A DNA stretch of 64,000 bases from Neptunicoccus sediminis (GTDB taxonomy: Bacteria > Pseudomonadota > Alphaproteobacteria > Rhodobacterales > Rhodobacteraceae). The stretch is taken from NCBI RefSeq assembly GCF_001719615.1, contig NZ_MDVX01000019.1, positions 1 to 64,000 on the forward strand, given 5' to 3'. Both the position numbers and the translations under genes were made by a program. Numbering within the stretch: position 1 is the first letter of the stretch; each line of letters begins with the position of its first letter. A model generated the notes under the pieces. That model ran no database searches and was not told where the DNA came from. It was given only the letters and a program-made list of their open reading frames with translations. Below are positions 2,525-64,000 of the stretch, one piece after another.

Positions 2525-3850
2525 ATGAAAACTGTGCGGGTTTTGTTGAATTCCGAAGATTTCAATTTGAATGTTTATGCACCAGCAGAAATTCTAGGCG
2601 ATTTTTTGGACAGCTTAAAGGCAATCCAAAAGTACCAAGGCCGGGTTCCCAGAGTGTATCAAGAAATCGTCGCCCTGCTATATTATCACGGACAGGTTTT
2701 AAACGGTGGCCATAACCAGTGGGTCGGGAATTTGTGTAACTTGTTGGACGCACAAGCTGACTTAGAGGGGGAGGCATTGAACAGGTTATTGGGGCCTCAG
2801 GTCGACGGGTTAATGTATGCCGCTCGGGAGCTAGGTTTGGGTGAGCTACATGAACTCTTAGTTGACGTTCTAAGCTGGTTGGCGATGCCTGGTGACCAAC
2901 GTGATTGGATGAAGTTAAACGGATTTGATTCTAGATTCTACGGTTTGAAAATGAACCAAGATGCAATGGAGGTATACTGTAAAGCTGGTCCAAGACCTTT
3001 TCAAAAATGGTTTGAATTGGTGGGCGGTAAAGCGCACGTTGATGGAGTCCATGTCTACTATTTGGCTGTTGCAAAGTTTTTGCTTTTGGACCCAAACACG
3101 GACATCCTCTCGTCAGAGCCTTGGAACAAAGAACGTAGTAAGATCTTCGATGATCCCGAAGCCGTGGTTGCCAAGAAATTGAGTGCTTACGAGCTGGCCA
3201 AAAAATATATTCCATCAGATACCTATATAGCCTTGGTCACGGCTTTTTCAAAAATCCAAGATTCTGAAGGTTCGAAAGTTCGTTTTGTGAAGAAAATTCA
3301 TGCCCTTTCTAATGGTAAGAACGGGTCTACTCGCTTTGTTGCGCAAACAACCAAGAATGTAGTGATTGTTGAAACAGATGAAGATTGCGTGTGTATCTAT
3401 CAACGTAAATTACCTTGGAGCCGATTATTCAAGTGCGCTTTGGTCGAAGCCGGATTTGCGCTGAGGCTTTCGAGCGTTCAAGCCGTTACCAACGCACGTT
3501 GGGTTCGTGGCGAAGCCAAAAGTGGAAAGCTTCTGGCTAAAGCACAAATAAATCCAAAATGGCGAAAAATGTTCTTCGAATTCAAAATTCCGGAAGGGCT
3601 CATGCTGTCTGATGGCGGTGTTGAAGCACACAGCGGCATTCGAAACGGAGATCTAATTGCACTGGAGATTTCGTCTGAACAGATTGGATGGCAATATAAA
3701 ATGTGGAATTCAAATTTAACAATTCGTGCGGATTCGCATACCGTTACGATCGAGCATAAGGAGTTGGGACGGTGCGAGACATTTTCTATGGATCAGCTGG
3801 ATGAGTTGAGAAATAGCTTGCTGCAAAAATACGGGTCTGCTCAGAGCTAG
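2525..3850 (+). CDS. Orphan 441-aa protein inserted in the S10 operon
   Basis: Not firmly recognised. ATG 2525 gives MKTVRVLLNSEDFNLNVYAP; a GAGG lies about 13 nt upstream. No signal peptide or membrane segment is visible, so it should be cytosolic. Residues about 45-130, containing LNGGHNQWVGNLCNLLD, weakly resemble the NNGG(F/H)xQ pattern of DMP19/DUF4375 proteins. The middle is alpha/beta mixed, and the last 200 residues contain many aromatic/basic strands (e.g. QIGWQYKMWNS). Codon use (ttg, aat, aaa, gat) and lower GC differ sharply from the flanking ribosomal genes, pointing to horizontal acquisition. It sits on the same strand between the rplW terminator and the rplB leader, presumably expressed from its own promoter. 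Function unknown. Confidence 0.8.
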   Translation: MKTVRVLLNSEDFNLNVYAPAEILGDFLDSLKAIQKYQGRVPRVYQEIVALLYYHGQVLNGGHNQWVGNLCNLLDAQADLEGEALNRLLGPQVDGLMYAARELGLGELHELLVDVLSWLAMPGDQRDWMKLNGFDSRFYGLKMNQDAMEVYCKAGPRPFQKWFELVGGKAHVDGVHVYYLAVAKFLLLDPNTDILSSEPWNKERSKIFDDPEAVVAKKLSAYELAKKYIPSDTYIALVTAFSKIQDSEGSKVRFVKKIHALSNGKNGSTRFVAQTTKNVVIVETDEDCVCIYQRKLPWSRLFKCALVEAGFALRLSSVQAVTNARWVRGEAKSGKLLAKAQINPKWRKMFFEFKIPEGLMLSDGGVEAHSGIRNGDLIALEISSEQIGWQYKMWNSNLTIRADSHTVTIEHKELGRCETFSMDQLDELRNSLLQKYGSAQS

Positions 3851-46111: not shown

Positions 46112-46548
46112 TGTCACCCGCGTCAGCGTTGTTTTTAGATTGGCATTATATGGCCGTGCTGGCACAAAATTGCAATGGGGTGCAAAAGCGCAAGCAGCTT
46201 GGGCAGGATGTCTCCGGCGGTCATATCGTCAAGGCCACAATGCATAATATTATTTGCTCGGAATGCGTCAGATACAAAAAGTATCTACAATTTTGTCTTA
46301 CATTTCGCGGTTGAAGAATTGCTTACACATTCCGGCTGGAGATCCATGCACATCGTTTCTCGGTGGCCTCCGTCGTGAATTGGCGGAGACGGTAATTATT
46401 TCAGTGCCTTGTCGTGTAGCCGTACCTCAAGGGCGGATTGCGAACATTCGCCGCGTTGCACCCAGCAACTCACTACTTTTTTTACAGCGGACACTCAAGT
46501 TTCCCGTGTTGAGAAACCATGAGAAGCAATTGGCGCATTCTATAAGTT
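46112..46548. other. Gap between accA and the island end
   Basis: 437 nt without a credible gene. It contains a perfect dyad agatac-aaaaa-gtatct (46270-46286) and a possible minus-strand promoter for accA overlapping it: TTGTAT (46277-46272), 17 nt, AATAAT (46254-46249). The part nearest the tRNA fragment (46490-46548) shows no tRNA 5' half. Confidence 0.45.
46249..46277 (-). promoter_or_regulatory. Candidate accA promoter
   Basis: On the minus strand, TTGTAT, 17-nt spacer, AATAAT, about 140 nt upstream of accA. The -35 lies inside the dyad at 46270-46286. The -35 match is modest. Confidence 0.3.
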
Positions 46549-46595
46549 GAGGATTGAAAATCCTCGCGTCGGTGGCTCGATTCCGCCCCTGGGCA
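46549..46595 (+). pseudogene. 3' half of tRNA-Phe(GAA), probable att site
   Basis: Anticodon arm gagga-ttgaaaa-tcctc with anticodon GAA, variable loop gcgtc, T arm ggtgg-ctcgatt-ccgcc, 3' acceptor strand cctgggc, discriminator A, then caa instead of CCA. The 5' acceptor strand and D arm are missing and the first T-loop base is C rather than T, so it is not functional. It lies 34 nt from the 3' end of an integrase gene, the normal appearance of a duplicated attachment site after integration at a tRNA 3' end. Confidence 0.8.
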
Positions 46596-46629
46596 CAATT
46601 TAACATACTGATATGTTTGTATTTTTTGC

Positions 46630-47745
46630 TCATGATTGATCCTCGTTTCGGTCAGGTTTGACGCTTTTCTGCGAAGGTTTGACAATTTTTGCGCGCTTTT
46701 CGTTTTCTTTTTCCAGCGTCGCCATGGTTTCGCGGTTCTTTTCGGCAAGGTTGGCCGAGCGGGAATAGTGCCGCGCCTTGGAAGGTGTCTTCGGTCCTAG
46801 AAGGTCGGCGATGCGGCGTTCATCGAGCCCTGCTTCGCGCAAAGTCGTGGCGACGGTGTGCCGCAAGCCCTTGAGGGTCAGGCCTTTTTCAATAAGGCCT
46901 TCATTCTCAAGGGCGGTTTTGAAGCGGTGCCAAACAGTCGAAAAGCCGTTGTATGTCCATACCTCACCGCGCGAATTGGAAAGCACGGTCTCGGCGTCGT
47001 GGTTATGCATGCGTTTAAGCGCGGCCTGAAGGGTCGAGCTGACCGGAATCGCAACCTCTTCGCCTGTCTTGCCGCGTACGCCCCAAATTGTCCCGTCATC
47101 GACCTGATCATTCCGTAATCGTAGGGCGTCGGACGGGTCCAGGCCGGTGTACATCATCAAGGCAAGGGCCACGCGCACATGGGGCTTGGCCTTGCCCAAG
47201 ACGGTATTGCGCTCTTCGATGGCCCAAGGGCGGTTGGCATATGCACGGTCGCGCGGGCGTCGCTTGGGAATGACGTCTTTGGCGAAGTTGGCGGAGATGA
47301 GCCCCTTCGGGATGTTGTAGCGAAATACCTCGCTGAGAAGCGTACGGACCATGTTCGCCCGCCGCCAGCCAATTTTCTTTGCGGCCTTGTCGTGGATGCC
47401 TGCTATCAAAGGCGTATCAATCACATGGATCGGGGTGTCGCGGATCGGTTCAAGGAAATCGGCGCACTTGCGATAGTCGCGCCGGGTCGCCTCAGCCAGG
47501 TTCTGATAGTGCTCAGTCTCAAAGTAGGACTGGATCAAACCGCCAAGCGTTCCAGCCTTTGGTGCCTTCGCTCGCTGTGCCTCGGCGATGGCGCGGATCG
47601 TCTCGCATTCGGCGAAGAACTCGGCAGAACCAATCGGTGCGTGGGTCAGGTCAACCTTGTGGCCGGTCTCTCGGTGGTAGCATCGCTGCTTGCCGTGCCG
47701 GTCCTTGAAAATCTTGAAACCCTTGACCCGCACCTGTGTCATCAA
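46630..47745 (-). CDS. Tyrosine recombinase (island integrase)
   Basis: 371 aa (TTG 47745, ATG 47742). N-terminal arm and SAM-like domains, then the catalytic domain: MMYTGLDPSDALRLRND (about 198-214), RGKTGEEVAIPV with the Lys, LKGLRHTVATTLREAG, and HYSRSANLAEKN with the nucleophile Tyr near residue 327. Two expected residues look replaced: Asp where the first catalytic Arg of TGxR is usual, and Lys for the first His of HxLR. The start overlaps the stop of the excisionase remnant. The gene ends next to the tRNA fragment. Confidence 0.88.
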   Translation of the reverse strand: MMTQVRVKGFKIFKDRHGKQRCYHRETGHKVDLTHAPIGSAEFFAECETIRAIAEAQRAKAPKAGTLGGLIQSYFETEHYQNLAEATRRDYRKCADFLEPIRDTPIHVIDTPLIAGIHDKAAKKIGWRRANMVRTLLSEVFRYNIPKGLISANFAKDVIPKRRPRDRAYANRPWAIEERNTVLGKAKPHVRVALALMMYTGLDPSDALRLRNDQVDDGTIWGVRGKTGEEVAIPVSSTLQAALKRMHNHDAETVLSNSRGEVWTYNGFSTVWHRFKTALENEGLIEKGLTLKGLRHTVATTLREAGLDERRIADLLGPKTPSKARHYSRSANLAEKNRETMATLEKENEKRAKIVKPSQKSVKPDRNEDQS

Positions 47746-47978
47746 AGGCGGTCCAGAATGGTGTCGCGGGTGTCGGTCACGGCCCCGGACTTCACATCAT
47801 CAATCCAGAGATCGAGGTAACGGCGATCCCAAAGCAGCGTGCCTTGCTTCAACTAAACGGGGCGCACGGGACAAGCCGCCTTGAAGTGCTTCACCGGCAA
47901 CCCGGCATAACTCGCGGCCTCAGACTGCTTCAGCATGCGCTTTTCGTTCACGCTGATATTGAGATTGGTCGTCGCCAT
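47742..47978 (-). pseudogene. AlpA/excisionase-like gene interrupted by an amber codon
   Basis: The minus strand reads from ATG 47978: MATTNLNISVNEKRMLKQSE, AASYAGLPVKHFKAACPVRP, V, then TAG at 47855-47853 (codon 42), and continues in the same frame LKQGTLLWDRRYLDLWIDDV...TILDRL to TGA at 47744-47742, overlapping the integrase start. Both halves fit a single small HTH protein of the type found before such integrases (the WDRRYLDLWID end is typical). So it is a one-base nonsense mutant, unless the host suppresses UAG. Confidence 0.7.
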
Positions 47979-47994
47979 AACCAGACACCCCCCG

Positions 47995-48246
47995 TCAATT
48001 CGCCACCGAGCCCTCGGCCCTTTTGACCTTGGTCGCGTTCTTCTGGAATCGCTCCCAGCCGCTCATCGTCAGCATCTTGGTCTTTGATGAAATCTCCACA
48101 AATTCCAGTTTGCCGGTGTTCATCAGCGCGCGAATTTGCGCAGGGCAGAGCCCAACGATCTCGCTGAGCTGTTTGGGTGAAAGCAGGCGTTCTTGGGTCA
48201 ATTTCGGCACCATCGCTGGATATGAATAGAATCGCTTGTTCTGCAC
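47995..48246 (-). CDS. Small HTH (excisionase/AlpA-like) protein
   Basis: 83 aa from 48246, or 72 aa from ATG 48213 (MVPKLTQERLLSPKQLSEIV). The HTH reads LSPKQLSEIVGLCPAQIRALMNTGKLEFVEI, followed by SGWERFQKN; this is the MerR/AlpA-like winged-helix layout (segments quoted in part). Divergent from the XRE regulator, sharing a 93-125 nt control region. Probably an excision or regulatory factor of the island. Confidence 0.65.
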   Translation of the reverse strand: MQNKRFYSYPAMVPKLTQERLLSPKQLSEIVGLCPAQIRALMNTGKLEFVEISSKTKMLTMSGWERFQKNATKVKRAEGSVAN

Positions 48247-48310
48247 CTTATGACATGCTCAGATGGTTCAAGGGCAGGAAATACGTCATTTCGTGCAGTT
48301 TCGCTCGTTA

Positions 48311-48324
48311 TGGCGATTTCGCCA
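48311..48324. promoter_or_regulatory. Palindromic operator before the XRE gene
   Basis: TGGCGA-TT-TCGCCA, a perfect 6-2-6 palindrome 15 nt upstream of the XRE start in the divergent control region; a typical repressor site. Confidence 0.55.
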
Positions 48325-48338
48325 ATAGGGAACCTTGC

Positions 48339-48761
48339 ATGCGGCAGGACGCAAAATCAGTTTTCATTGCTATGGGCGCGCGCCTTGCTATCGCGCGCAA
48401 CGAAGTAGGCCTGAAACAAACAGCAATGGCGGAGGCGATTGGCGTCTCACATCGCGCCTATCACAGCTACGAAAAGGGCCAACGGGGTCTTCCTGTGGAG
48501 GCGCTTGTCGCGATGTCAGACCGGTTTGAAGTAGATGCTGCGTGGATATTGCTCGGAACGCAGACAGTCCGTGCATCTCATGACTTTGAAGCCTTGAAAC
48601 AGATTGAGACCTCACTCGATCAGCACCTCAACGAAGAAAACATGAAGATCAAAAGTGAGAAGCGCGGGGCCATCGTCGCGCGCTGGTATCAGTCACATCT
48701 TGAGGGGCGGGAAGTCAGAGATGATGACGTTCACACTTGGATCGAACTGGTAAGGGATTAA
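48339..48761 (+). CDS. XRE-family transcriptional regulator
   Basis: 140 aa from ATG 48339 (MRQDAKSVFIAMGARLAIAR). The Cro/CI-type HTH is ARNEVGLKQTAMAEAIGVSH (helices 1-3), then RAYHSYEKGQRGLPVEALVA and an acidic/helical C-terminus. The frame is open to 48177 but the upstream part crosses the operator and is not conserved-looking. A likely repressor of the divergent HTH/integrase side and possibly of itself. Confidence 0.85.
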   Translation: MRQDAKSVFIAMGARLAIARNEVGLKQTAMAEAIGVSHRAYHSYEKGQRGLPVEALVAMSDRFEVDAAWILLGTQTVRASHDFEALKQIETSLDQHLNEENMKIKSEKRGAIVARWYQSHLEGREVRDDDVHTWIELVRD

Positions 48762-49178: not shown

Positions 49179-51641
49179 ATGCCACTGACACTCGCCCAAT
49201 TGGAGCGTCACCTTTTTAGCGCTGCAGACATCCTTCGCGGCAAGATGGATGCCTCGGAATTCAAAGAGTACATTTTCGGGATGCTCTTCCTGAAGCGCTG
49301 TTCGGACGTGTTCGAACAGGCCCGCTTGGAGGTGGTGCAAAAGCGTATCGCGAGCGGCGTGGCCCCGGAGCAGGCCGCAGAAGAAGCGGAGAACAAGGTT
49401 TGGTATGGGCGCAGCGGTACGTTTTGGGTTCCGCCGCAATCGCGCTTTGGTCACCTAGTTGACGAAGCGCACGAGAACATCGGCGACAAACTCAACAAAG
49501 CCTTGGGTGGCGTCGAGTCCGAAAACATCGCGCTCGAAGGTGTCCTCGACCACATCGATTTCACCCGCAAAGTTGGCCAAAGCAAGATCAGCGACCAGAA
49601 ACTGCGCCAACTCATCAATCACTTCGGTGAAATCCGGCTTCGCAACGAAGACTTTGAATTTCCTGACCTTCTAGGCGCAGCATACGAATACCTGATTGGT
49701 GAGTTTGCGGACTCCGCCGGCAAAAAAGGCGGCGAGTTCTATACCCCGCGTTCGGTCGTCCGGATGATGGTGCGGCTGCTCAAGCCAACGCTCGAACATG
49801 ACATCTACGATCCCTGCTGCGGGTCCGGCGGTATGCTCATCGCGGCCAAGGATTACATCGACGAACATGGCCAAGACGGGCGCAGGGCTAACCTTTTCGG
49901 TCAGGAAGCTGCTGGCACTGTTTGGTCCATCGCGAAGATGAACATGCTGCTCCATGGCATCAACAGCGCCGACTTGCGGAACGAGGACACCTTGGGCGAA
50001 CCGCAGCACGTTGAAGACGGCGAGTTGCGCCGCTTTGATCGGATCCTCACGAACCCGCCGTTTTCGATCAACTGGGGTTCCAAGGACAAAGAACGCTCTG
50101 GTGAATACACGTGGCAGCCCAAGTTCAGGGAACGCTTCTTCCATGAGGTGCCGCTTGGCTCGAAGAAGGCCGACCTCATGTTCCTCCAGCACATGTTGGC
50201 CGTCAGTCGTGACGGCGGCATGATCGCAACTGTTATGCCGCACGGGGTCCTGTTCCGGGGCGGAGACGAAGGTAAAATTCGTCAGAAGATCATCGAGAGC
50301 GACCAGATCGAGGCGGTCATCGGCCTCGGCCCGCAGCTCTTCTACGGCACCGGCATCCCGGCTTGCGTGATCGTCCTTCGCCAGCGGGTGCACCATGGCG
50401 CGAACCTCGTGTCGGGCAAGCCTGCCGAACGGCAGGGCAAGGTACTCTTCATCAACGCCGACCGCGAATTTTTCGAAGGCCGGGCGCAGAACCACCTGCT
50501 GCCGGAGCATATCGAGAAGATCGTCACCACGTTCGAGGAATACCGCGCAATCCCCGGCTTCTCGGCCATCGTCGACATCGACACGCTGCGCAAGAATGAC
50601 TTCAATCTGAACATCCGCCGCTATGCCGACAACGCCCCGCCGCCCGAACCGCATGACGTGCGCGCGCACCTTGTGGGCGGCATCCCGATTGCAGAGGTTG
50701 AGGCCAAGACCGCGCTCTTCCAATCCCACGGGCTTGACCCGATGGACCTGCTGATACCGCGCGATGACAAATACCTCGATTTCGCCGCCAGCCTGACCGC
50801 CAAGTCAGACCTCAAACCCGCTATCGAAACCAATGCGGGCCTCACCGCGCGCGAAGCGGAGATCAAGGACAGCTTCAACGCGTGGTGGGACGCGCATCGG
50901 GATAGCATCAAATCCCTCGCCGGGGCCGAAGACTCCGCCGCGCTAATCACCCTGCGGGATGAACTGCTCTCCAGCTTTTCCGACACGCTCGAAAGCCTCG
51001 CCATGCTCGACCCGTTCACCGTGCGGGGCATCATCGCCCAGTTCTGGAACCAGTCGCGGTTTGACTTCCTGACCCTCATGGCGCGTGACACCAAGGGCGT
51101 GGTGGATGCCTGGCGCACCTCTATCGTCACGGCGCTGGAGGATAAGGGAAACAAGGAAAACCCGCTGGATCACAAGCTGGTCGCCTTCCTCATGGGCGGT
51201 TTCGTGCGCGAGATTGCCGAGCTTGAGGCGCGCAAGGCGGAACTGGATGCACAGTTAAAGGCGGCGACGGCCAAGCCCGAGGAGGACGAGGAAGAAGACG
51301 AGGCCGAACCGGTGGACGAGGCGCAAATCAAGCGCTGGAAGAAGGAGCTGAGCGAGGTCAAGAAGACGCTGAAGGCCAAACAGGCGCAGTTCACAGACGA
51401 GATCAACGCAGGCGTTGACGGGCTGTCATCCGAGGAGGCGGCGGAGCTGCTGCTGAAAATCTTGCATGATGACATGCAGAAAATCCTGACCCGCTACATC
51501 GGTGCGCAACGCACCCAGATCGTGGCGGCGTTTGAGAACTGGTGGGACAAGTATCGCGTGACCTTGACCGAGATCGAGGGCGCACGGGCAGAGGCGACGG
51601 AGAAGCTGGCTGGGTTCTTGAAGGGGTTGGGGTATGTGTGA
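49179..51641 (+). CDS. hsdM: Type I restriction-modification DNA methyltransferase
   Basis: 820 aa, N6-adenine methylase and recognition partner of HsdS. N-terminal HsdM domain (residues about 5-140), AdoMet motif DPCCGSGGM (211-219), catalytic NPPF (292-295). After about residue 480 there is an unusually long helical/charged extension with an acidic stretch ([11 protein letters not shown], about 704-714) and a coiled coil; classical HsdM is about 490-530 aa. The stop overlaps hsdS by 8 nt. Confidence 0.94.
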
Positions 51642-52956
51642 CTCAACCTTTGAAAGGGTGGAACTTGGCGATATCGCGGAACGCTCAGAAGGTAGTTTTG
51701 TAGACGGTCCATTCGGATCGAGTCTCAAATCCGACGAATACACTGAAGAAGGTGTGCGCCTGATCCAGCTTCAGAACATTGGGATAAATGAGTGGTTTGA
51801 CGCTAACCAAAAATTCATTTCTGAGCGCAAATTCCTATCACTCCAGCGCCACGGAACCGTTCCAGGTGACATTGCGATTGCCAAGATGGCCGAACCCGTT
51901 GCGAGGGCCTGTATCGTACCGCCCGTTAGCGAGCAGTTCGTAGTGGTCGCGGACTGCATCCGTCTCCGACCAGACACGTCTCGCTTTGTGCCGTCATACA
52001 TCGCAAAGGCAATCAACAGTCCTTACACGCGACTTGAAGCTGAAAAGAAGGCCATTGGATCGACCCGCGTCCGGATCAATTTGACTACGCTAAAGACCGT
52101 TGGCTGCTTGGTTCCTTCGTTCGAAAGACAATCCAAAATCGCCGAGGTGCTGGATACGTTGGATGCGGCGATCCGGGGGACGGAGGCGGTGGTGGCGAAG
52201 TTGAAGGCGATGAAGCAGGGGCTGCTGCATGACCTACTGACCCGCGGCATCGACGCAAACGGAGACCTCCGCCCCCCACACACCGAGGCCCCCCACCTTT
52301 ACAAAGAAACCTCACTCGGCTGGCTCCCGAAGGAGTGGGATTGGGGCAAACTTGAAGACCATTGTTCCCGTATTTGTGTCGGTATCGTTATCAGGCCCGC
52401 CGACTACTACGTATCTGAGGGAGTGCCGACATTCAGATCGGCAAACGTCCGGGAAGGCCAACTCACTGGCACTGACCTCGTGTACATTTCTCCGCAGTCG
52501 AATGCGATGCTCCACAAAAGCCAAGTTCGCAAAGGTGACATACTGACGGTGAGAACCGGATATCCTGGAACGAGTGCTGTGGTGCCTGATGAATATGACG
52601 GCTGTAATTGCGTAGACATATTGATCACTACGCCAGCCGGTTCGATCTCCGCTGATTTCTTGTGTCGATGGATTAATTCGCCGTTTGGAAAAGAGCAGGT
52701 CTTGAATGGGCAGGGAGGGCTAGCACAGCAGCACTTCAACGTTGGTGAAATGCGGGAACTGATCGTTGTTGAACCTAGTATCGTTGAGCAAGACGAGATT
52801 TCACGAAGGCTTGCTGCCGCAGAGAGTAAACTTGAAGAAGAGCTGAAACTGCTCGACAAACTCCGCCTCCAAAAATCCGGTCTGATGGACGATCTTCTTA
52901 CCGGGCGGGTCTCCGCTGCGCCTTTGCTTAAAGAGGGGGCTGCACATGGGGCATGA
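51634..52956 (+). CDS. hsdS: Type I restriction-modification specificity subunit
   Basis: 440 aa, two target-recognition domains each followed by a conserved helix. TRD1: [20 protein letters not shown] ... [14 protein letters not shown], ending [20 protein letters not shown] and [20 protein letters not shown]2 starts [20 protein letters not shown] and ends [20 protein letters not shown]. The TRD parts are AT-richer than the flanks, as usual for shuffled recognition domains. It overlaps hsdR by 11 nt. The recognition sequence cannot be predicted. Confidence 0.93.
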
Positions 52957-55900
52957 ACTCGATGATGTGGAACAGCCCTTCATCGACCAGATTGTCGCCA
53001 TGGGCTGGCAGGCGCAGACCGGCAATATGGACGATCCCTCCCTGACCGGGCGGAACAGTTTCAAGGATGTCATCGCCGAGGCCACGCTGCGCGAGCGCCT
53101 GCGCGCGATCAATCCCGGCCCCGATGGCAAACCCTGGCTCGACGAGGCGCGCCTGTCCGAGGCTGTCAGCGCGCTCACCCGCCACGGCCAGCGCGGGCTG
53201 ATGGAGGCCAATCAAGCGGTGACCGAATTGCTGCTCAAGGGCCTGACGGTCGAGGGTCTGCCCGGCTGGGACGGCGGGCGCGGCCAAACCATCCGCTACA
53301 TCGCTTGGGACGATGTGGGGGCGAATAGCTTCACCGTGTCCAACCAGTTCCGCGTCGATTGCCCGCCCGGCCATGACGTGGGCAAGGGTTTCATCATTCC
53401 CGATGTGGTGATGCTGGTGAACGGTATCCCGGTGGTGGTGGTCGAGGCCAAAAGCCCCGGCATCCCCGAACCGCTGGCCGAGGCGGTCAAGCAACTGCGC
53501 CGCTATCACAACGCCCGCAAGGCCGCGCTGGAGGTTGACGAGAACGAAGGTGCGCCCGCGCTCTTCGCCTCGGTCCAGCTTCTGATCGCCACCAGCTTTG
53601 ACGAGGCCCGCGTAGGCTGCATCGGTGCGGGGCTGGAGTATTACGGGCAGTGGAAGACGGTCGTGGGGCCGGACGGCAAAGGCTCCGAGGATGAGGTGGC
53701 TGCGGCGCTTGGCAAGACGCGCCTGTCCGAACAAGAGCGCATGATCGAGGGCATGCTGCGCCCGGCGCATCTTCTGGATATCCTGCGCCACTACCTGCTG
53801 TTCATGAATGTGGGCGGCCAGACCATCAAAACGGTTTGCCGTTATCAGCAATACCGCGCCGTGAACCGCGCTCTGGAACGCCTGCGGACCGGCAAGACGC
53901 GGCTGCAAGACGGTGAATATGATCGGCGCGGTGGCATCGTCTGGCACACGCAAGGCTCAGGTAAGAGCCTGACCATGGTCTTCATGATCCGCAAGATGCG
54001 GACGGATTTGGACCTGCGAAAGTTCAAGGTGATTATGGTCACCGACCGCAAGGACCTGCAACGGCAACTGTCTGAAACGGCGACGATGTCCGGTGACGTG
54101 GTGGAGCTGGCGACGAGTAACAGTTCCTTGAAGCGGCTCGCCCGCCGTAAAGGGCCGGGTTTGGTCTTTGCAACGATCCAGAAGTACCGCACAGATGAGG
54201 ACGTGGCCGAGGTCACGAAGGGACCGGCCTTTGACGTGCTGAACGAAGATGACACGATCCTGGTCGTGGTAGATGAGGCACACCGGACGCAGGCAGGCGA
54301 TCTACATGCCAACCTGCTGGCAGCGCTGCCGAACTGCGCGCGGATCGGTTTCACCGGCACGCCGATCATCATGGGCGAGAAGAAGCGTTCGACCGAGATT
54401 TTTGGCGATTTCATCGATCAGTACACGATCAAGGAAGCCGAGGCCGATGGGGCGACTGTGCCGGTGCTCTACGAGGGACGGACCGCAGAGGGGGCCGTGA
54501 AGGATGGGGCCACCCTAGACGTCCTGTTCGAGGATATGTTTCGCGGCCGGTCGGACGAGGAACTGGAAGCGATCCGCAAAAAATACGCGACCAAGGGCAA
54601 CATCCTGGAGGCCAAGGAACTGATCGGGGAAAAGGCCCGCGACATGCTTCGGCACTACGTGACCAACCTTTTGCCGAATGGGTACAAGGCGCAGGTCGTG
54701 GCCTACAGCCGCACAGCGGTTGTCCGGTATAATGCGGCTTTTTTGGAGGCACGTGATGAGCTTTTGGCCGAAGCGGCGGCTCTGTGTGACGCTGACAAGT
54801 CGTTGGACGACGAAGAGCTCTGCATCAGAACCGCAGAGCTGCAGGCGTTGGTTCAGGCTTGGCGATACCGCGATACGCTGGAGAAGATTGAGTTTGCGGC
54901 GATCATGTCCGGTGGCAACAATGATGATGCTAGCTGGAAGCAGTGGACCGAAGGCTCAGCGCAGGAAATGCGGATCAAACGGTTCAAGAAACCTTTGTTT
55001 CACAAGGATCCCACGAAGGCGGACCCCCTTGCGTTTCTGATCGTGAAATCAATGCTTTTGACGGGCTTCGATGCGCCCATTGAAGGTGTGATGTACCTTG
55101 ATCGATCAATTCGTGAAGCCGAGCTGCTGCAGGCCATTGCCCGTGTAAATCGAACCGGTTTCGGCAAGACCTGCGGGATCGTCGTGGACTATTTTGGTGT
55201 TGCCCATCACCTCAAGTCGGCCCTTTCCGCCTATTCGGATGAAGACATTGACGGAGCGCTGGTCAGCCTCACAGACCAAATTCCCATTCTGCGAGATCGG
55301 CACATTCGGGTCGTCGACATCTTCAGGCGCGAAGGCTTGGATGATCTGTCGGACGACGAAAGCTGTCTACAAGTGCTGGCAACTGAAAAGGTCAGGGCCG
55401 AGTTCACAGTGAAGCTGAAGGACTTCCTCAAGTCCTTGGAAATCGTGCTTCCAAGGCCGGAAGGTCTGCCATTCGTAAAGGATGCAAAGCGCCTTGCCTA
55501 TATCCAGGCGCGCGCGCGGAACAGGTTCCGCGATGTCGCCGTCATCGGTTCCGATGTAGGTGCTAAGGTTCGAAAGCTGATTGATGACCACGTGATCTCG
55601 TTGGGTATCGATCCCAAGATACCTCCCGTTCAACTTACGGATGCCGAGTTTGAAGACCAGGTTGGGCAAGCAAGCGGTGCGCGCGCCAAAGCTTCGGAGA
55701 TGGAACACGCGATCCGTTCACATATCCGCAAGAAGCTCGAAACTGACCCTGTTCGGTTCAAGAGGATGTCCGAGCGCCTTAATCAGATTCTAGATGGCTT
55801 TGGACATCAGTGGGATGAAATCATCGAGCAGCTTCAAGCGATTATTGATGAGCTACGGTCAGAGTCCCAATCAACTGGCGAAACTGAATTCGATATACCG

Positions 55901-56212
55901 GAGATTTATGTCCCCTTCCTTCGCACCGTTCTCGAAGAGGCGGGAGCGGACGAAAACACACCGGCACAACATCTTCAGGCTCTGCATCGTGTGACCCAAG
56001 AGATCGTGGATCGCATTGTCGAAGAAGTTGTTGCCAATCGCTCAATCTGGAGCACATTCAAGATGGCTGACCAAGAAAATCTGCGATCTGAAATCTTCGA
56101 AAAACTGGTTGATGCAAAGATCGAGGGGCTTGGTGTTTTGGACGCAGAGCGGTTGTCGGAACAGTTGATGCAGCAAGCCAAGGCCAGTGAGGAAGCCTTG
56201 AGGGAATTCTGA
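52946..56212 (+). CDS. hsdR: Type I restriction endonuclease/translocase subunit
   Basis: 1088 aa, ATP-driven translocase and nuclease. Nuclease PD-(D/E)xK: Asp153 and EAK at 167-169 (IPDVVMLVNGIPVVVVEAKS). Helicase: Walker A HTQGSGKS (334-341), DEAH (443-446), GFTGTPI further on. All catalytic residues are intact, so the system should cut. The codon composition of the last third is less GC-rich than the first, hinting at a mosaic origin. The stop overlaps the next start (TGATG). Confidence 0.94.
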   Translation: MGHELDDVEQPFIDQIVAMGWQAQTGNMDDPSLTGRNSFKDVIAEATLRERLRAINPGPDGKPWLDEARLSEAVSALTRHGQRGLMEANQAVTELLLKGLTVEGLPGWDGGRGQTIRYIAWDDVGANSFTVSNQFRVDCPPGHDVGKGFIIPDVVMLVNGIPVVVVEAKSPGIPEPLAEAVKQLRRYHNARKAALEVDENEGAPALFASVQLLIATSFDEARVGCIGAGLEYYGQWKTVVGPDGKGSEDEVAAALGKTRLSEQERMIEGMLRPAHLLDILRHYLLFMNVGGQTIKTVCRYQQYRAVNRALERLRTGKTRLQDGEYDRRGGIVWHTQGSGKSLTMVFMIRKMRTDLDLRKFKVIMVTDRKDLQRQLSETATMSGDVVELATSNSSLKRLARRKGPGLVFATIQKYRTDEDVAEVTKGPAFDVLNEDDTILVVVDEAHRTQAGDLHANLLAALPNCARIGFTGTPIIMGEKKRSTEIFGDFIDQYTIKEAEADGATVPVLYEGRTAEGAVKDGATLDVLFEDMFRGRSDEELEAIRKKYATKGNILEAKELIGEKARDMLRHYVTNLLPNGYKAQVVAYSRTAVVRYNAAFLEARDELLAEAAALCDADKSLDDEELCIRTAELQALVQAWRYRDTLEKIEFAAIMSGGNNDDASWKQWTEGSAQEMRIKRFKKPLFHKDPTKADPLAFLIVKSMLLTGFDAPIEGVMYLDRSIREAELLQAIARVNRTGFGKTCGIVVDYFGVAHHLKSALSAYSDEDIDGALVSLTDQIPILRDRHIRVVDIFRREGLDDLSDDESCLQVLATEKVRAEFTVKLKDFLKSLEIVLPRPEGLPFVKDAKRLAYIQARARNRFRDVAVIGSDVGAKVRKLIDDHVISLGIDPKIPPVQLTDAEFEDQVGQASGARAKASEMEHAIRSHIRKKLETDPVRFKRMSERLNQILDGFGHQWDEIIEQLQAIIDELRSESQSTGETEFDIPEIYVPFLRTVLEEAGADENTPAQHLQALHRVTQEIVDRIVEEVVANRSIWSTFKMADQENLRSEIFEKLVDAKIEGLGVLDAERLSEQLMQQAKASEEALREF

Positions 56213-56964
56213 TGCCCAACCTCCCGCTTTCACCCATTCGCACAGGGGGCCGCTCAGTCCGTTTTTTCGACCAGCATTTGGACGTAGATGGCTTGTCGTT
56301 CAACATACGACGGAGCGATAGGAGAAAGACCCTCCAGATTACCGTGGAGAGATCGGGCGAACTTGTAATTCTCGCGCCGCCGGAAGCAACAGAAAGTGAC
56401 TTGGTCGAGTTCGTTCAGGAGAAACTGCTTTGGGTGCATACCAAGTTGGAGGAAAAGGCGCGACTTCAGCGAAGGGCCCCTATTAAGGAGTTCGTCGATG
56501 GCGAGGGGTTCCTGTATCTTGGTAAAAGTTATCGCCTTCGCTTGGTCGACCGTCAGCTTGTGGATCTGACATTAAAGAATGGACGCTTCTGTCTTCGAAC
56601 GGCCTCGGTCCATAGAGGCCGGGAAGTCTTTATTTCTTGGTACGTTCGCAAGGCACAAGCCTGGTTCGAGAAGCAAACCCTTCAGCATTCAAACCGCATG
56701 GATGTGAGCATCAATGAGGTCAAAGTCCAGGACCTAGGCTTCCGGTGGGGTTCGTTTGGATCAGAGGGGAGGGTTTCCTTTCATTGGAAGGCCGCACTTT
56801 TGCCGCCGAGGATCGCGCAATACATCATCATCCATGAACTGGCGCATGCCCATCATCCCGACCATTCGGCGAAATTCTGGATCAAGGTTGAGCAACATCT
56901 CCCTGATTGGAGGGCCCGCAAGGAATGGTTGGCCGAAAATGGGATGCAAGTTGAAGGTTTGTGA
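56212..56964 (+). CDS. YgjP-like metallopeptidase domain protein (DUF45)
   Basis: 250 aa. Zincin motif IIIHELAHAHHPDHSAKFW (about 202-220), HExxH with a third His as in YgjP/SprT-type proteins. The N-terminal part has the family pattern IRRSDRRKTLQITVERSGEL and APPEATESDLVEFVQEKL. These proteins are often encoded with hsdR; the role (perhaps turnover of the restriction complex) is not established. Starts on the hsdR stop. Confidence 0.88.
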   Translation: MPNLPLSPIRTGGRSVRFFDQHLDVDGLSFNIRRSDRRKTLQITVERSGELVILAPPEATESDLVEFVQEKLLWVHTKLEEKARLQRRAPIKEFVDGEGFLYLGKSYRLRLVDRQLVDLTLKNGRFCLRTASVHRGREVFISWYVRKAQAWFEKQTLQHSNRMDVSINEVKVQDLGFRWGSFGSEGRVSFHWKAALLPPRIAQYIIIHELAHAHHPDHSAKFWIKVEQHLPDWRARKEWLAENGMQVEGL

Positions 56965-57932: not shown

Positions 57933-58259
57933 ATGAGTTTGTTTGAAGACCCTGTGCACCCCGGTGACCTCCTGAAGGAGCTTTACCTAGATCCCCAGGA
58001 GTTGGGGGCCATCGCGTTTGCGCGGCGTCTGGGCGTGCCTCGGACGCGGATCGAGCGGTTGATCAAGGCGACGACCGGGATCACACCCGACTCAGCGTTG
58101 CGGTTGGCCCGCGTGTTCAACACCACCCCGGCCCACTGGGTGAACTTGCAGACCAACTATGACATGGCGCTGGCGGCAAACGAAATCGCTGCTTCAGCCG
58201 ACCTGCCGCTCGTTGCGACTTGTCCCTCTAAAACGACATTTTCTGAAGAAGAAACATGA
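57933..58259 (+). CDS. HigA-type antitoxin/XRE protein
   Basis: 108 aa (MSLFEDPVHPGDLLKELYLD). HPGDLLKELYLDPQELGAIA, then FARRLGVPRTRIERLIKATT and GITPDSALRLARVFNTTPAH, WVNLQTNYD: clear HigA/VapI-family HTH. No HigB-like gene is next to it; instead a NADAR gene overlaps its stop (ATGA). It may be the regulator or antitoxin of the downstream cassette. Confidence 0.85.
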   Translation: MSLFEDPVHPGDLLKELYLDPQELGAIAFARRLGVPRTRIERLIKATTGITPDSALRLARVFNTTPAHWVNLQTNYDMALAANEIAASADLPLVATCPSKTTFSEEET

Positions 58260-58690
58260 ACGACGTTCGCTTTCATGGTGCTTCTGGCCGTTATGGGTTC
58301 CTTTCAAACTTCTCAGCCTATGGGTTTCGAGTCGACGAAGTGTTTTGGCCAACCGTTGAGCATTACTACCAAGCATCGAAATTTGAAACCCCTGACAAAA
58401 AACAGGAAATTCTGAACTGTGAAACGCCTAGGCTGGCCAAAAAGCTTGGGGGGCAAGTAGACGGAATTCGTAATGATTGGCTTGAAGAACGGGTCAGTGT
58501 TATGAGGTTTGCTGTGCTGAAAAAGTTCCAACAAAATGACGACATTGCGCGAAGCCTCTGTGAAATAACCGGACAAATTTTTGAAATCTCAGAAGACGAT
58601 TGTTTTTGGGGTGTGGGAGCAGAGGGCACTGGAGAAAATATGTTGGGGAAGATTCTTATGGGCGTCAGAGAACAGGTGTGTGAAGCATGA
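58256..58690 (+). CDS. NADAR-family (YbiA-like) N-glycosidase
   Basis: 144 aa. Motifs YGFLSNFSAYGFRVDEVFWP, TVEHYYQASKFETPDKKQEI and the end DCFWGVGAEGTGENMLGKIL match NADAR/DUF1768 (YbiA). The family cleaves N-glycosidic bonds of ADP-ribose-like adducts; some members reverse guanine ADP-ribosylation as antitoxins to DarT-type toxins, others act on riboflavin intermediates. AT-rich. Overlaps the HigA gene and the next gene by 4 nt each. Confidence 0.88.
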   Translation: MNDVRFHGASGRYGFLSNFSAYGFRVDEVFWPTVEHYYQASKFETPDKKQEILNCETPRLAKKLGGQVDGIRNDWLEERVSVMRFAVLKKFQQNDDIARSLCEITGQIFEISEDDCFWGVGAEGTGENMLGKILMGVREQVCEA

Positions 58691-60519: not shown

Positions 60520-60581
60520 TTTTGCGTCGGGATTTGCGTTATTTATATGGTGCTTTGACATGACTTTTGGTAGTCAGGCGC

Positions 60582-62195
60582 ATGCCTGAACACGCCGAAA
60601 ACCTCCCCGATGATCCCGCCGTTTTGAAGGCGATGATCGCGGCTTTGCAGGCAGAAAACGCCAAGATATCGGCCACGTTGCGCGTCCATGATCAGTTGGT
60701 TCAGGCGCTTCGCCTACGGATCGCCAAATTGCAGAAACTGGCTTTCGGCAAGTCCTCAGAAAAGATCGAGCGCGAGATCGAACAGTTGGAGCTGGCGCTC
60801 GAAGATCTGCTGGTCGCGGTTGCTGAGGAAGATGACGCGCCCATCAACGAAGGGCAGGATGAACCGTCACCGGAAGCTGCCGATGCACCCGCTTTGCGCC
60901 GCCGACCACGTGTCTCGGGTACGACCCCGCGCGAACGCCGTGAACTGGACCCCGGCACCTGCTGCCCTGACTGTGGCGGTGATCTGCGCGTAGTGGGTGA
61001 GGATGTCAGCGAACTCCTTGACATGATTGCTGCCCAGATGAAGGTGATCCAGATCGCCCGGATCAAGAAATCCTGTCGGCGCTGCGAGCGGATGGTGCAA
61101 GAACCTGCACCCAGCCGCCCGATCCCGGGCAGCATGGCCGGGCCGAACCTCTTGGCACATGTGTTGGTCTCAAAGTTCGACGATCACCTTCCCCTCTATC
61201 GCCAGCATGAGATCTTCGCCCGCATGGGCGCGGACATTCCCGAAAGCACGCTGGTCGGCTGGTGCGGGCGGGCCATGAAGACCCTGCAGCCGCTGATCGC
61301 ACGTATTGAGGCTGACATCATGGGCAGCGACCTGCTGCACGCAGATGACACACCGATCCGGGTGCTGGATCGCAGCATGCGCGACAAGGGTCTTGGCAAA
61401 GGGGTCAAGCAAGGCCGGATCTGGGCCTATGTGCGCGATCAACGCCCATGGGCGGGTGCATCGCCACCGGGGGCCGTCTATCGGTTTGCACCGAACTGGA
61501 AGGAAGAGCACGTTCTCAGCCATCTGGCCAACGCCCGCGGCATCCTCCAGGCTGATGGCTACAAGGGATATGCCAAGCTCTATGCGTCTGAACCCGATGG
61601 TAAACCGCGCTTGCGCGAGGCGGCCTGTTGGGCCCACCTGCGTCGTGACTTCCACGACTTTTGGACCTCAACCAAATCCGAGATCGCCCGCGAAGCGCTC
61701 GACCGGATCGGCAAGTTCTATGACATCGAGCGCGATATAAACGGCCAGCCCGCTGACGTGCGTCATGCGACGCGCCAAAAGCTGACCCAGCCAAAAGTCG
61801 CGGCCTTCTTCGCCTGGTCTGAACAACAGCTCCTGCGCATCCCCGGCAAAAGCGATCTGGCCAAGGCGTTCCGCTATGGTCTCGCGCGGCAGGAGGCCCT
61901 CAGCTTGTTCCTAAGCGACGGGCGTGTGGCCATTGACAACAACCCCGCTGAACGCGCCCTGCGCCCGATTGGAATAGGACGGAAAAACTGGCTCTTCGCG
62001 GGTGCCGATACCGGTGCAGAAACCCTCGCGCGTGCAATGACCGTCATTGAAACCGCCAAGCTGAATGGTCTCGACCCACTGGCCTATCTCGCCGACATCC
62101 TCGACCGTATCCACGATCACAAGATCAACTGGCTGGATGAATTGCTGCCGTGGAATTGGGTGCCGCTGGACACTGCCCATTCACAGGCCACCTGA
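60582..62195 (+). CDS. tnpC: IS66 TnpC transposase
   Basis: 537 aa from ATG 60582 (MPEHAENLPDDPAVLKAMIA). N-terminal leucine zipper (IAALQAENAKISATLRVHDQ), a zinc-finger-like CCPDCGGDLR and SCRRCERM pair, then the DDE domain: LHADDTPIRVLD (first Asp), LQADGYKGYAKL (second Asp), and DNNPAERALRPIGIGRKNWL (Glu). All catalytic residues are present. Confidence 0.95.
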   Translation: MPEHAENLPDDPAVLKAMIAALQAENAKISATLRVHDQLVQALRLRIAKLQKLAFGKSSEKIEREIEQLELALEDLLVAVAEEDDAPINEGQDEPSPEAADAPALRRRPRVSGTTPRERRELDPGTCCPDCGGDLRVVGEDVSELLDMIAAQMKVIQIARIKKSCRRCERMVQEPAPSRPIPGSMAGPNLLAHVLVSKFDDHLPLYRQHEIFARMGADIPESTLVGWCGRAMKTLQPLIARIEADIMGSDLLHADDTPIRVLDRSMRDKGLGKGVKQGRIWAYVRDQRPWAGASPPGAVYRFAPNWKEEHVLSHLANARGILQADGYKGYAKLYASEPDGKPRLREAACWAHLRRDFHDFWTSTKSEIAREALDRIGKFYDIERDINGQPADVRHATRQKLTQPKVAAFFAWSEQQLLRIPGKSDLAKAFRYGLARQEALSLFLSDGRVAIDNNPAERALRPIGIGRKNWLFAGADTGAETLARAMTVIETAKLNGLDPLAYLADILDRIHDHKINWLDELLPWNWVPLDTAHSQAT

Positions 62196-63700: not shown

Positions 63701-64000
63701 TCAGGGCCCGAACGCGGGCCCTGTTTCATTTTCATCGTCGGGCATTGGCTCTTCCGGTTCGAAGAGGGTCTCCAAATCGTCGATTACCTCTTCCTCACTA
63801 ACGTTATCGGCGGAGGGTGCTTCCTGCGCAGGCAGGTCGAACTCATGCTTGGGTCTCTCATTAGACCGTTTTTGATGGTCTGGAGCGCCCTGTGTTGGCC
63901 GCTGAGACCTCTTTGCAGGTGTCAGGGGTGGCGGAGCAGGCAGTGGCTTCTGCGGGCGGCCCAGCGTGGCCTTGATGCTGCGGCTCCAGTTCTTGAAGAA
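63701..64000 (-). CDS. C-terminal end of a gene running off the window
   Basis: The minus strand is open from the window edge to TGA at 63701-63703: 99 codons starting FFKNWSRSIKATLGRPQKPL and ending acidic (NVSEEEVIDDLETLFEPEEP, then GPAFGP). The Pro-rich then acidic composition suits the disordered tail of a relaxase or replication protein, and it faces the MbeB/MbeD-like genes, so a MobA-type relaxase is plausible. Nothing can be proved from this part. Confidence 0.55.
   Translation of the reverse strand, partial: FFKNWSRSIKATLGRPQKPLPAPPPLTPAKRSQRPTQGAPDHQKRSNERPKHEFDLPAQEAPSADNVSEEEVIDDLETLFEPEEPMPDDENETGPAFGP
63703..63722 (-). terminator. Hairpin at the end of the edge gene
   Basis: agggcccg-aacg-cgggccct (63703-63722) overlaps the stop of the minus-strand gene; perfect 8-bp stem. 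A weak T tail follows only on the + strand (gtttcattttc), so it may act in either direction. Confidence 0.5.

Follow-up and report, generated by a model that had tools for sequence, protein, structure and literature searches.

An amber codon interrupts a conserved 78-codon frame

The window analyzed here, a 64,000-nucleotide stretch at the start of a 66,460-base contig (C3) of the Neptunicoccus sediminis genome (72 contigs, 3.86 Mb), carries an excisionase-like reading frame broken by one TAG codon ahead of a tyrosine integrase gene. This raises the question of whether an integrative element has lost its exit factor and become locked in the chromosome or whether the TAG is a codon whose controlled suppression regulates excision; the original prediction allowed for both. 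The interrupted frame consists of the following parts.

47742–47978, minus strand: interrupted 78-codon excisionase-like (winged helix-turn-helix, wHTH) reading frame, recognized by the frame, its homologues and a predicted fold
47856–47978, minus strand: 41-amino acid (aa) stub, the expected product; strong Shine-Dalgarno-like site kept (duplex of −12.9 kcal/mol)
47853–47855, minus strand: private TAG, codon 42; a sense codon in every relative seen
47742–47852, minus strand: 36-codon remainder and stop; TTG after the TAG, without a ribosome-binding-like site (−1.7 kcal/mol)
47817–47819, minus strand: codon 54, Tyr here; all 49 distinct full-length relatives in the alignment have Asp

The frame runs from the ATG at 47978 to the TGA at 47744–47742, and the TAG at 47855–47853, with 41 codons on its 5′ side and 36 on its 3′ side, is the only interruption, so that the frame is indeed open on both sides of it, as had been claimed. 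A stop codon had also been said to overlap the integrase start. This holds for the terminal TGA, which shares its A with the integrase ATG at 47742–47740 (a one-base overlap), but not for the amber codon, which lies 111 bases upstream of that start. No second copy of the 78-aa gene was found in the assembly (next match, E = 0.244).

When the frame was read through, the 78-aa protein matched 47 loci in the genome_contigs collection and 18 of 394 genomes sampled from the family, the genome itself included. Because most of these matches span residues 1 to 78 across the TAG, the frame stands above chance, and the expectation that both halves are conserved proved correct. Most of the 47 loci come from records named Rhodobacteraceae or after genera belonging to this family. 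Pooling both sets of relatives and discarding ten loci already present in the first set left 54 cellular relatives, 50 of them full-length, with 49 distinct nucleotide sequences. At codon 42, these 49 sequences have GAG (27), GAA (12), CAG (6) or CAA (4). Glu is also found there in four relatives outside this count: L048, which is frameshifted; L049 and L064, which have no recognizable N-terminal part; and L066, where the contig begins. The 20 homologues on viral contigs, some of which repeat one another or cellular ones, have mostly Glu (E 13, A 2, Q 2, N 1, S 1, I 1). The Gln or Glu predicted for the TAG codon was thus what the cellular relatives contain. All relatives run through codon 42, and a stop is found there in none of the 54 cellular and 20 viral-contig homologues. 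As judged by this comparison, the TAG is private to the N. sediminis genome among the relatives seen.

The interrupted gene probably encodes a directionality factor

A structure model of the homologue from locus L005, built with a 34-sequence alignment, has a wHTH topology with a pLDDT of 62.8 (below 50 for residues 1 to 7 and 67 to 78). It comprises a helix (residues 4 to 14), two further helices (18 to 25 and 29 to 35), two wing strands (41 to 44 and 47 to 51) and helices 52 to 63 and 71 to 77. The top row of the VIA comparison was the RdfS excisionase (PDB 8dgl; Z = 6.2, 2.7 Å over 59 residues); the GIsul2 excisionase (8c3t; Z = 5.8, 1.9 Å over 53 residues) and Pukovnik Xis (4j2n; Z = 5.7, 1.8 Å over 50 residues) were also matched. 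BldC and MerR proteins came below the excisionases, and unrelated ribosome-assembly proteins also reached a Z of 5.5; all matches of the model were below a Z of 8, and no Foldseek E-value was below 0.001. With modest confidence, the intact homologue can be read as a predicted wHTH protein with excisionases as its best structural matches.

In PHROG searches, 16 of 34 members weakly matched phrog_66 (excisionase and transcriptional regulator; best E = 0.0014) and 2 of 34 matched phrog_539 (excisionase); the best family, phrog_7338, is of unknown function. A profile search of PDB sequences returned designed toroid proteins, with a best E-value of 3.2e-05 but no single stretch above the threshold, as well as weak matches, and tblastn of the plasmid and phage collections found no homologue of the 78-aa protein. 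Recombination directionality factors (RDFs) are typically small and positively charged, a trait that is not strict. The protein is 78 aa long, and the 49 relatives have a median net charge of +1 (range, −1 to +4), less basic than typical RDFs.

According to excerpts of a published study, RDFs are often wHTH proteins, excision often needs one, and most RDF genes adjoin a tyrosine integrase gene (PMC11963761). The 78-aa protein resembles the wHTH RDFs of tyrosine integrases (RdfS of ICEMlSymR7A, Pukovnik Xis and the GIsul2 excisionase) in size, predicted wHTH fold and integrase-adjacent position. RdfS is described in such excerpts as having an extra N-terminal helix, which the 78-aa homologue may share (residues 4 to 14, low confidence). 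The rdfS gene sits in a conjugation operon, as stated in the same excerpts (PMC11963761), whereas the 78-aa gene overlaps its integrase gene. Unlike the known wHTH RDFs, the members of the 78-aa family that were tried had no Pfam or NCBIfam match above cut-off (one weak AlpA match was seen in Pfam), and in the window the gene is truncated at codon 42. The term “excisionase-like” is backed by the position of the gene and, with modest confidence, by the predicted fold, and the gene probably encodes a wHTH directionality factor (excisionase). On the L005 model, the TAG maps to the first wing strand; since the stub would end there, it probably no longer binds DNA.

The 78-aa gene and the integrase gene form a recurrent cassette

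Four further features of the window belong to the surroundings of the interrupted frame.

46630–47742, minus strand: tyrosine integrase, 370 aa, open throughout; N198Y, P246H, Q317P and M322K at near-invariant sites; Phage_integrase match (E = 1.1e-16)
46551–46601, plus strand: attachment-core remnant, with no remaining tRNA portion attached; matches the 3′ end of the intact tRNA-Phe at 47 of 51 bases
47995–48246, minus strand: second small HTH_17/phrog_66-like gene, an alternative directionality factor or regulator; weak matches
48342–48761, plus strand: conserved part of a divergent HTH_3 (repressor-like) open reading frame (48177–48761; start codon not fixed)

The usual order in relatives is a divergent HTH_3 regulator, a small HTH_17-like gene, the 78-aa gene, the integrase gene and tRNA-Phe(GAA). 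The tRNA-Phe is present in 39 of the 47 genome_contigs loci, and homologues of the HTH_3 regulator and of the HTH_17-like gene are each present in 41 of 55 loci, the window included and some loci being short-flanked. An integrase match, broken in some cases, directly follows the 78-aa gene in the 54 relatives, 51 of which have the one-base stop/start overlap (TGATG in 38, TAATG in 12, TAGTG in 1).

Could the directionality factor be the product of the other small HTH gene (47995–48246), so that excision is unaffected by the TAG? That gene is as widespread as stated above and matches phrog_66 with an E-value of 0.0018. However, nine loci (L040 to L045, L047, L062 and L063) have the 78-aa gene and the integrase gene with no upstream homologue detected, which makes the 78-aa gene the integrase's more constant partner, and it is the 78-aa gene alone that overlaps the integrase start. 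We consider this alternative unlikely.

The 78-aa gene is also found in viral contigs (L131 to L150), and in L041, L044 and L047 the cassette is flanked, upstream of position 3001, by large frames of phage-like appearance that by eye resemble portal and capsid genes. Islands and phage-like elements thus seem to share the 78-aa gene–integrase cassette. No published name for it was found in a search limited to open-licence full texts. A wHTH-like gene that is without a curated family match and overlaps a tRNA-Phe integrase gene across islands and phage-like elements of Rhodobacteraceae is a good candidate for a testable family of directionality factors, and as such the cassette is more useful than the stop codon itself.

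Other apparent signs of decay around the amber codon

Compared to five close relatives, the 78-aa frame has three private nonsynonymous substitutions (I11N, the stop and D54Y) and no synonymous ones; codon 12 differs too but varies among relatives and was not counted as private. The corresponding total for L003, L005, L006 and L007 is 1 nonsynonymous and 11 synonymous private changes; the more distant L012 (9 nonsynonymous, 9 synonymous) was left out of the test. The nonsynonymous excess gave a P value of 0.009 in a post hoc Fisher test and 0.033 when the stop was not counted. Asp54, which is Tyr here, is kept not only in all 49 distinct cellular sequences but also in 19 of the 20 viral-contig relatives.

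In the integrase, N198Y, P246H, Q317P and M322K are radical changes (BLOSUM62 below 0) at sites that are at least 90% conserved, four compared to 0 to 2 in 17 relatives of at least 85% identity that align in one piece; more distant or broken ones reach 36 such changes. Q317 and M322 lie just before Tyr326, which we take to be the nucleophile. Private integrase changes overall are 6 nonsynonymous versus 11 synonymous, and a plain count of deviant conserved sites gives five, inside the range of the relatives. A second integrase copy was not found in the assembly.

The intact tRNA-Phe of the genome is on another contig (C72). The last 46 bases of the core at 46551–46601 have four mismatches to the tRNA-Phe of L005, and the sequence left of 46551 is not tRNA. 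Eight other loci (L007, L014, L017, L025, L030, L033, L036 and L056), plus L006 at a contig end, lack a full tRNA-Phe beside the integrase gene. In L007, L017, L025, L033, L036 and L056, the core has no mismatches to a tRNA of its own kind. In L014 and L030, it is reduced to a short end, and since the 78-aa gene and the integrase gene are open in both, core damage by itself is no proof of decay. At L017, L033, L036 (just beyond ~4426) and L056 (reverse strand), the core is preceded by a similar flank that is not tRNA-Phe; these are probably tandem elements or attP-like junctions. No second long core was found in the genome except the tRNA-Phe on C72, in a search that a duplication of about a dozen bases would escape and in which C3 ends at 66460; relatives showed no clear empty site upstream of accA. 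Between accA and the integrase-side junction of the window, a ~240-base repeat (46212–46451) has six further copies in the genome (76 to 90% identity), and its first half is also found upstream of accA in a congener (G408).

Breakage of the module is not unusual. Among the 54 relatives, integrase frames shorter than 340 aa are found in L008, L033, L036, L039, L049 and L064, and also in L006, where a contig end is close. In L048, L049 and L064, the 78-aa gene carries a frameshift or lacks its N-terminal part. The amber codon appears to add another example to a familiar type, ordinary decay rather than a new control mechanism. A link between displacement of the element and breakage is not claimed, as integrase frames below 340 aa occur in two of the eight displaced loci (L033 and L036) and in L008, L039, L049 and L064 elsewhere, which is too few. 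In the Yersinia high-pathogenicity island, the integrase gene carries frameshift and nonsense mutations, as stated in an excerpt of PMC6202445. Going by that excerpt, the two cases share a nonsense-broken integration gene in an element that is probably fixed in the chromosome; in Yersinia it is the integrase gene that is broken, whereas here it is the excisionase-like gene, and the integrase frame is open with unusual residues.

An error of sequencing or assembly would make the TAG an artifact. The genome is a draft of 72 contigs and the TAG is a single-base matter, but the other private changes in the 78-aa gene, the integrase gene and the core look like decay of a lineage, and none of 17 contig frames that were checked has an internal stop. 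The error reading is, in our estimate, improbable.

On these comparisons, decay is favored over control, and loss of function is favored, because Asp54 is lost, the integrase has four radical changes and the core with four mismatches lies outside tRNA-Phe. The occurrence of truncated cores in open modules and of weak ribosome sites at other genes slightly weakens the decay reading.

Translation of the integrase gene may depend on the broken frame

The Shine-Dalgarno–like duplex at the integrase start has a median of −3.0 kcal/mol in 55 loci, compared to −2.7 kcal/mol for random 17-mers from the same loci. For the 78-aa gene, the median is −9.1 kcal/mol (51 loci), and the site in the window is stronger still, as listed above. 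Of 11 other start sites of the window that were looked at, four are weaker than −3.0 kcal/mol. The integrase start is without a clear ribosome-binding site, which is at most suggestive of coupling from the upstream stop. Since it would normally be reached from the excisionase stop, translation of the integrase gene probably proceeds by coupling from the end of the 78-aa frame and would be lowered by the TAG.

We consider it likely that the locus is a nonsense-inactivated wHTH directionality factor gene of a tRNA-Phe–type integrative element known from Rhodobacteraceae, which is decaying and fixed in the chromosome. A nonsense substitution in this lineage would have inactivated the excisionase gene: ribosomes would stop after 41 residues, the wing and the last helices would not be made, and the 41-aa stub would, judging from the model, not bind att DNA properly. 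Integrase translation would also fall through lost coupling from the excisionase stop, and the element, whose integrase has radical changes and whose mismatched core lies outside tRNA-Phe, would stay in the chromosome and decay. The best reading of the stop itself is that loss of the directionality factor probably locks the island in the chromosome, a reading strengthened by the other decay-like changes seen in the module. A double lock, in which the amber codon removes the directionality factor and also silences a mainly coupled integrase, stranding the element outside the tRNA-Phe site, is a more tentative proposal. The case shows how an integrative element may turn permanent through the loss of its exit factor.

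Suppression of the amber codon is not supported

On the regulatory reading, excision is controlled by suppression or readthrough of the TAG under certain conditions. Recoding in integration genes has a precedent: TGA readthrough in IntA, the integrase of Salmonella prophage ST64B, has been reported in an excerpt of PMC12455584. As there, an in-frame stop lies in a recombination gene, and the frame 3′ of the TAG is still open. However, going by that excerpt, the ST64B stop is TGA in an integrase gene, whereas the stop considered here is TAG, lies in an excisionase-like gene and shows neither conservation nor any indication of a suppressor. An RF00005 search and ARAGORN gave 39 tRNAs, none of which has a CUA anticodon. 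A pattern search for CUA anticodon loops gave two matches, a tRNA-Arg(UCU) and one that is no tRNA by ARAGORN. The control pattern for GUA gave eight matches, including the tRNA-Tyr absent from the 39-tRNA list, which brought the total to 40, an incomplete set that is, for example, without tRNA-Ile(GAU). The suggested search for a suppressor tRNA thus came out negative, as none of the 40 tRNAs found reads UAG.

Release factor 1 (RF1) is present (495.7 bits), and TAG ends 7 of 40 long non-overlapping open reading frames picked mechanically in the contig; in view of RF1 and the normal use of TAG, a change of the genetic code was rejected. Programmed readthrough would be expected to show a stop shared by relatives, with both halves under selection, but none of the 54 cellular and 20 viral-contig relatives has it. 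Dedicated decoding of UAG (a suppressor tRNA or a missing RF1) was not found either, although some near-cognate readthrough may occur. The loss of the conserved Asp54 nearby also argues against a regulatory TAG. Controlled suppression, as originally put forward, is thus unsupported, and we regard it as very unlikely.

The least credible reading is a split gene that still functions, giving an HTH peptide of 41 aa and, by a restart at the TTG immediately 3′ of the TAG, the remaining 36 aa, as this TTG has no preceding ribosome-binding-like site, the split point lies inside the predicted wing and the split form is absent from the 49 distinct cellular and 20 viral-contig relatives seen.

Other genes of the contig

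Near the contig end, a relaxase gene (PF03432) and NikA-like mobilization genes are located at 63701–65786 of C3 (1701–3786 of L115). A search of 17 genomes that carry related cassettes, made with no positive control, did not detect the relaxase, and we do not claim that it belongs to the element. In the window, 49179–56964 encodes a type I restriction-modification system (HsdM, HsdS and HsdR) followed by a YgjP-like metallopeptidase. A NADAR-domain gene lies at 58256–58690 and an IS66 transposase gene at 60567–62195.
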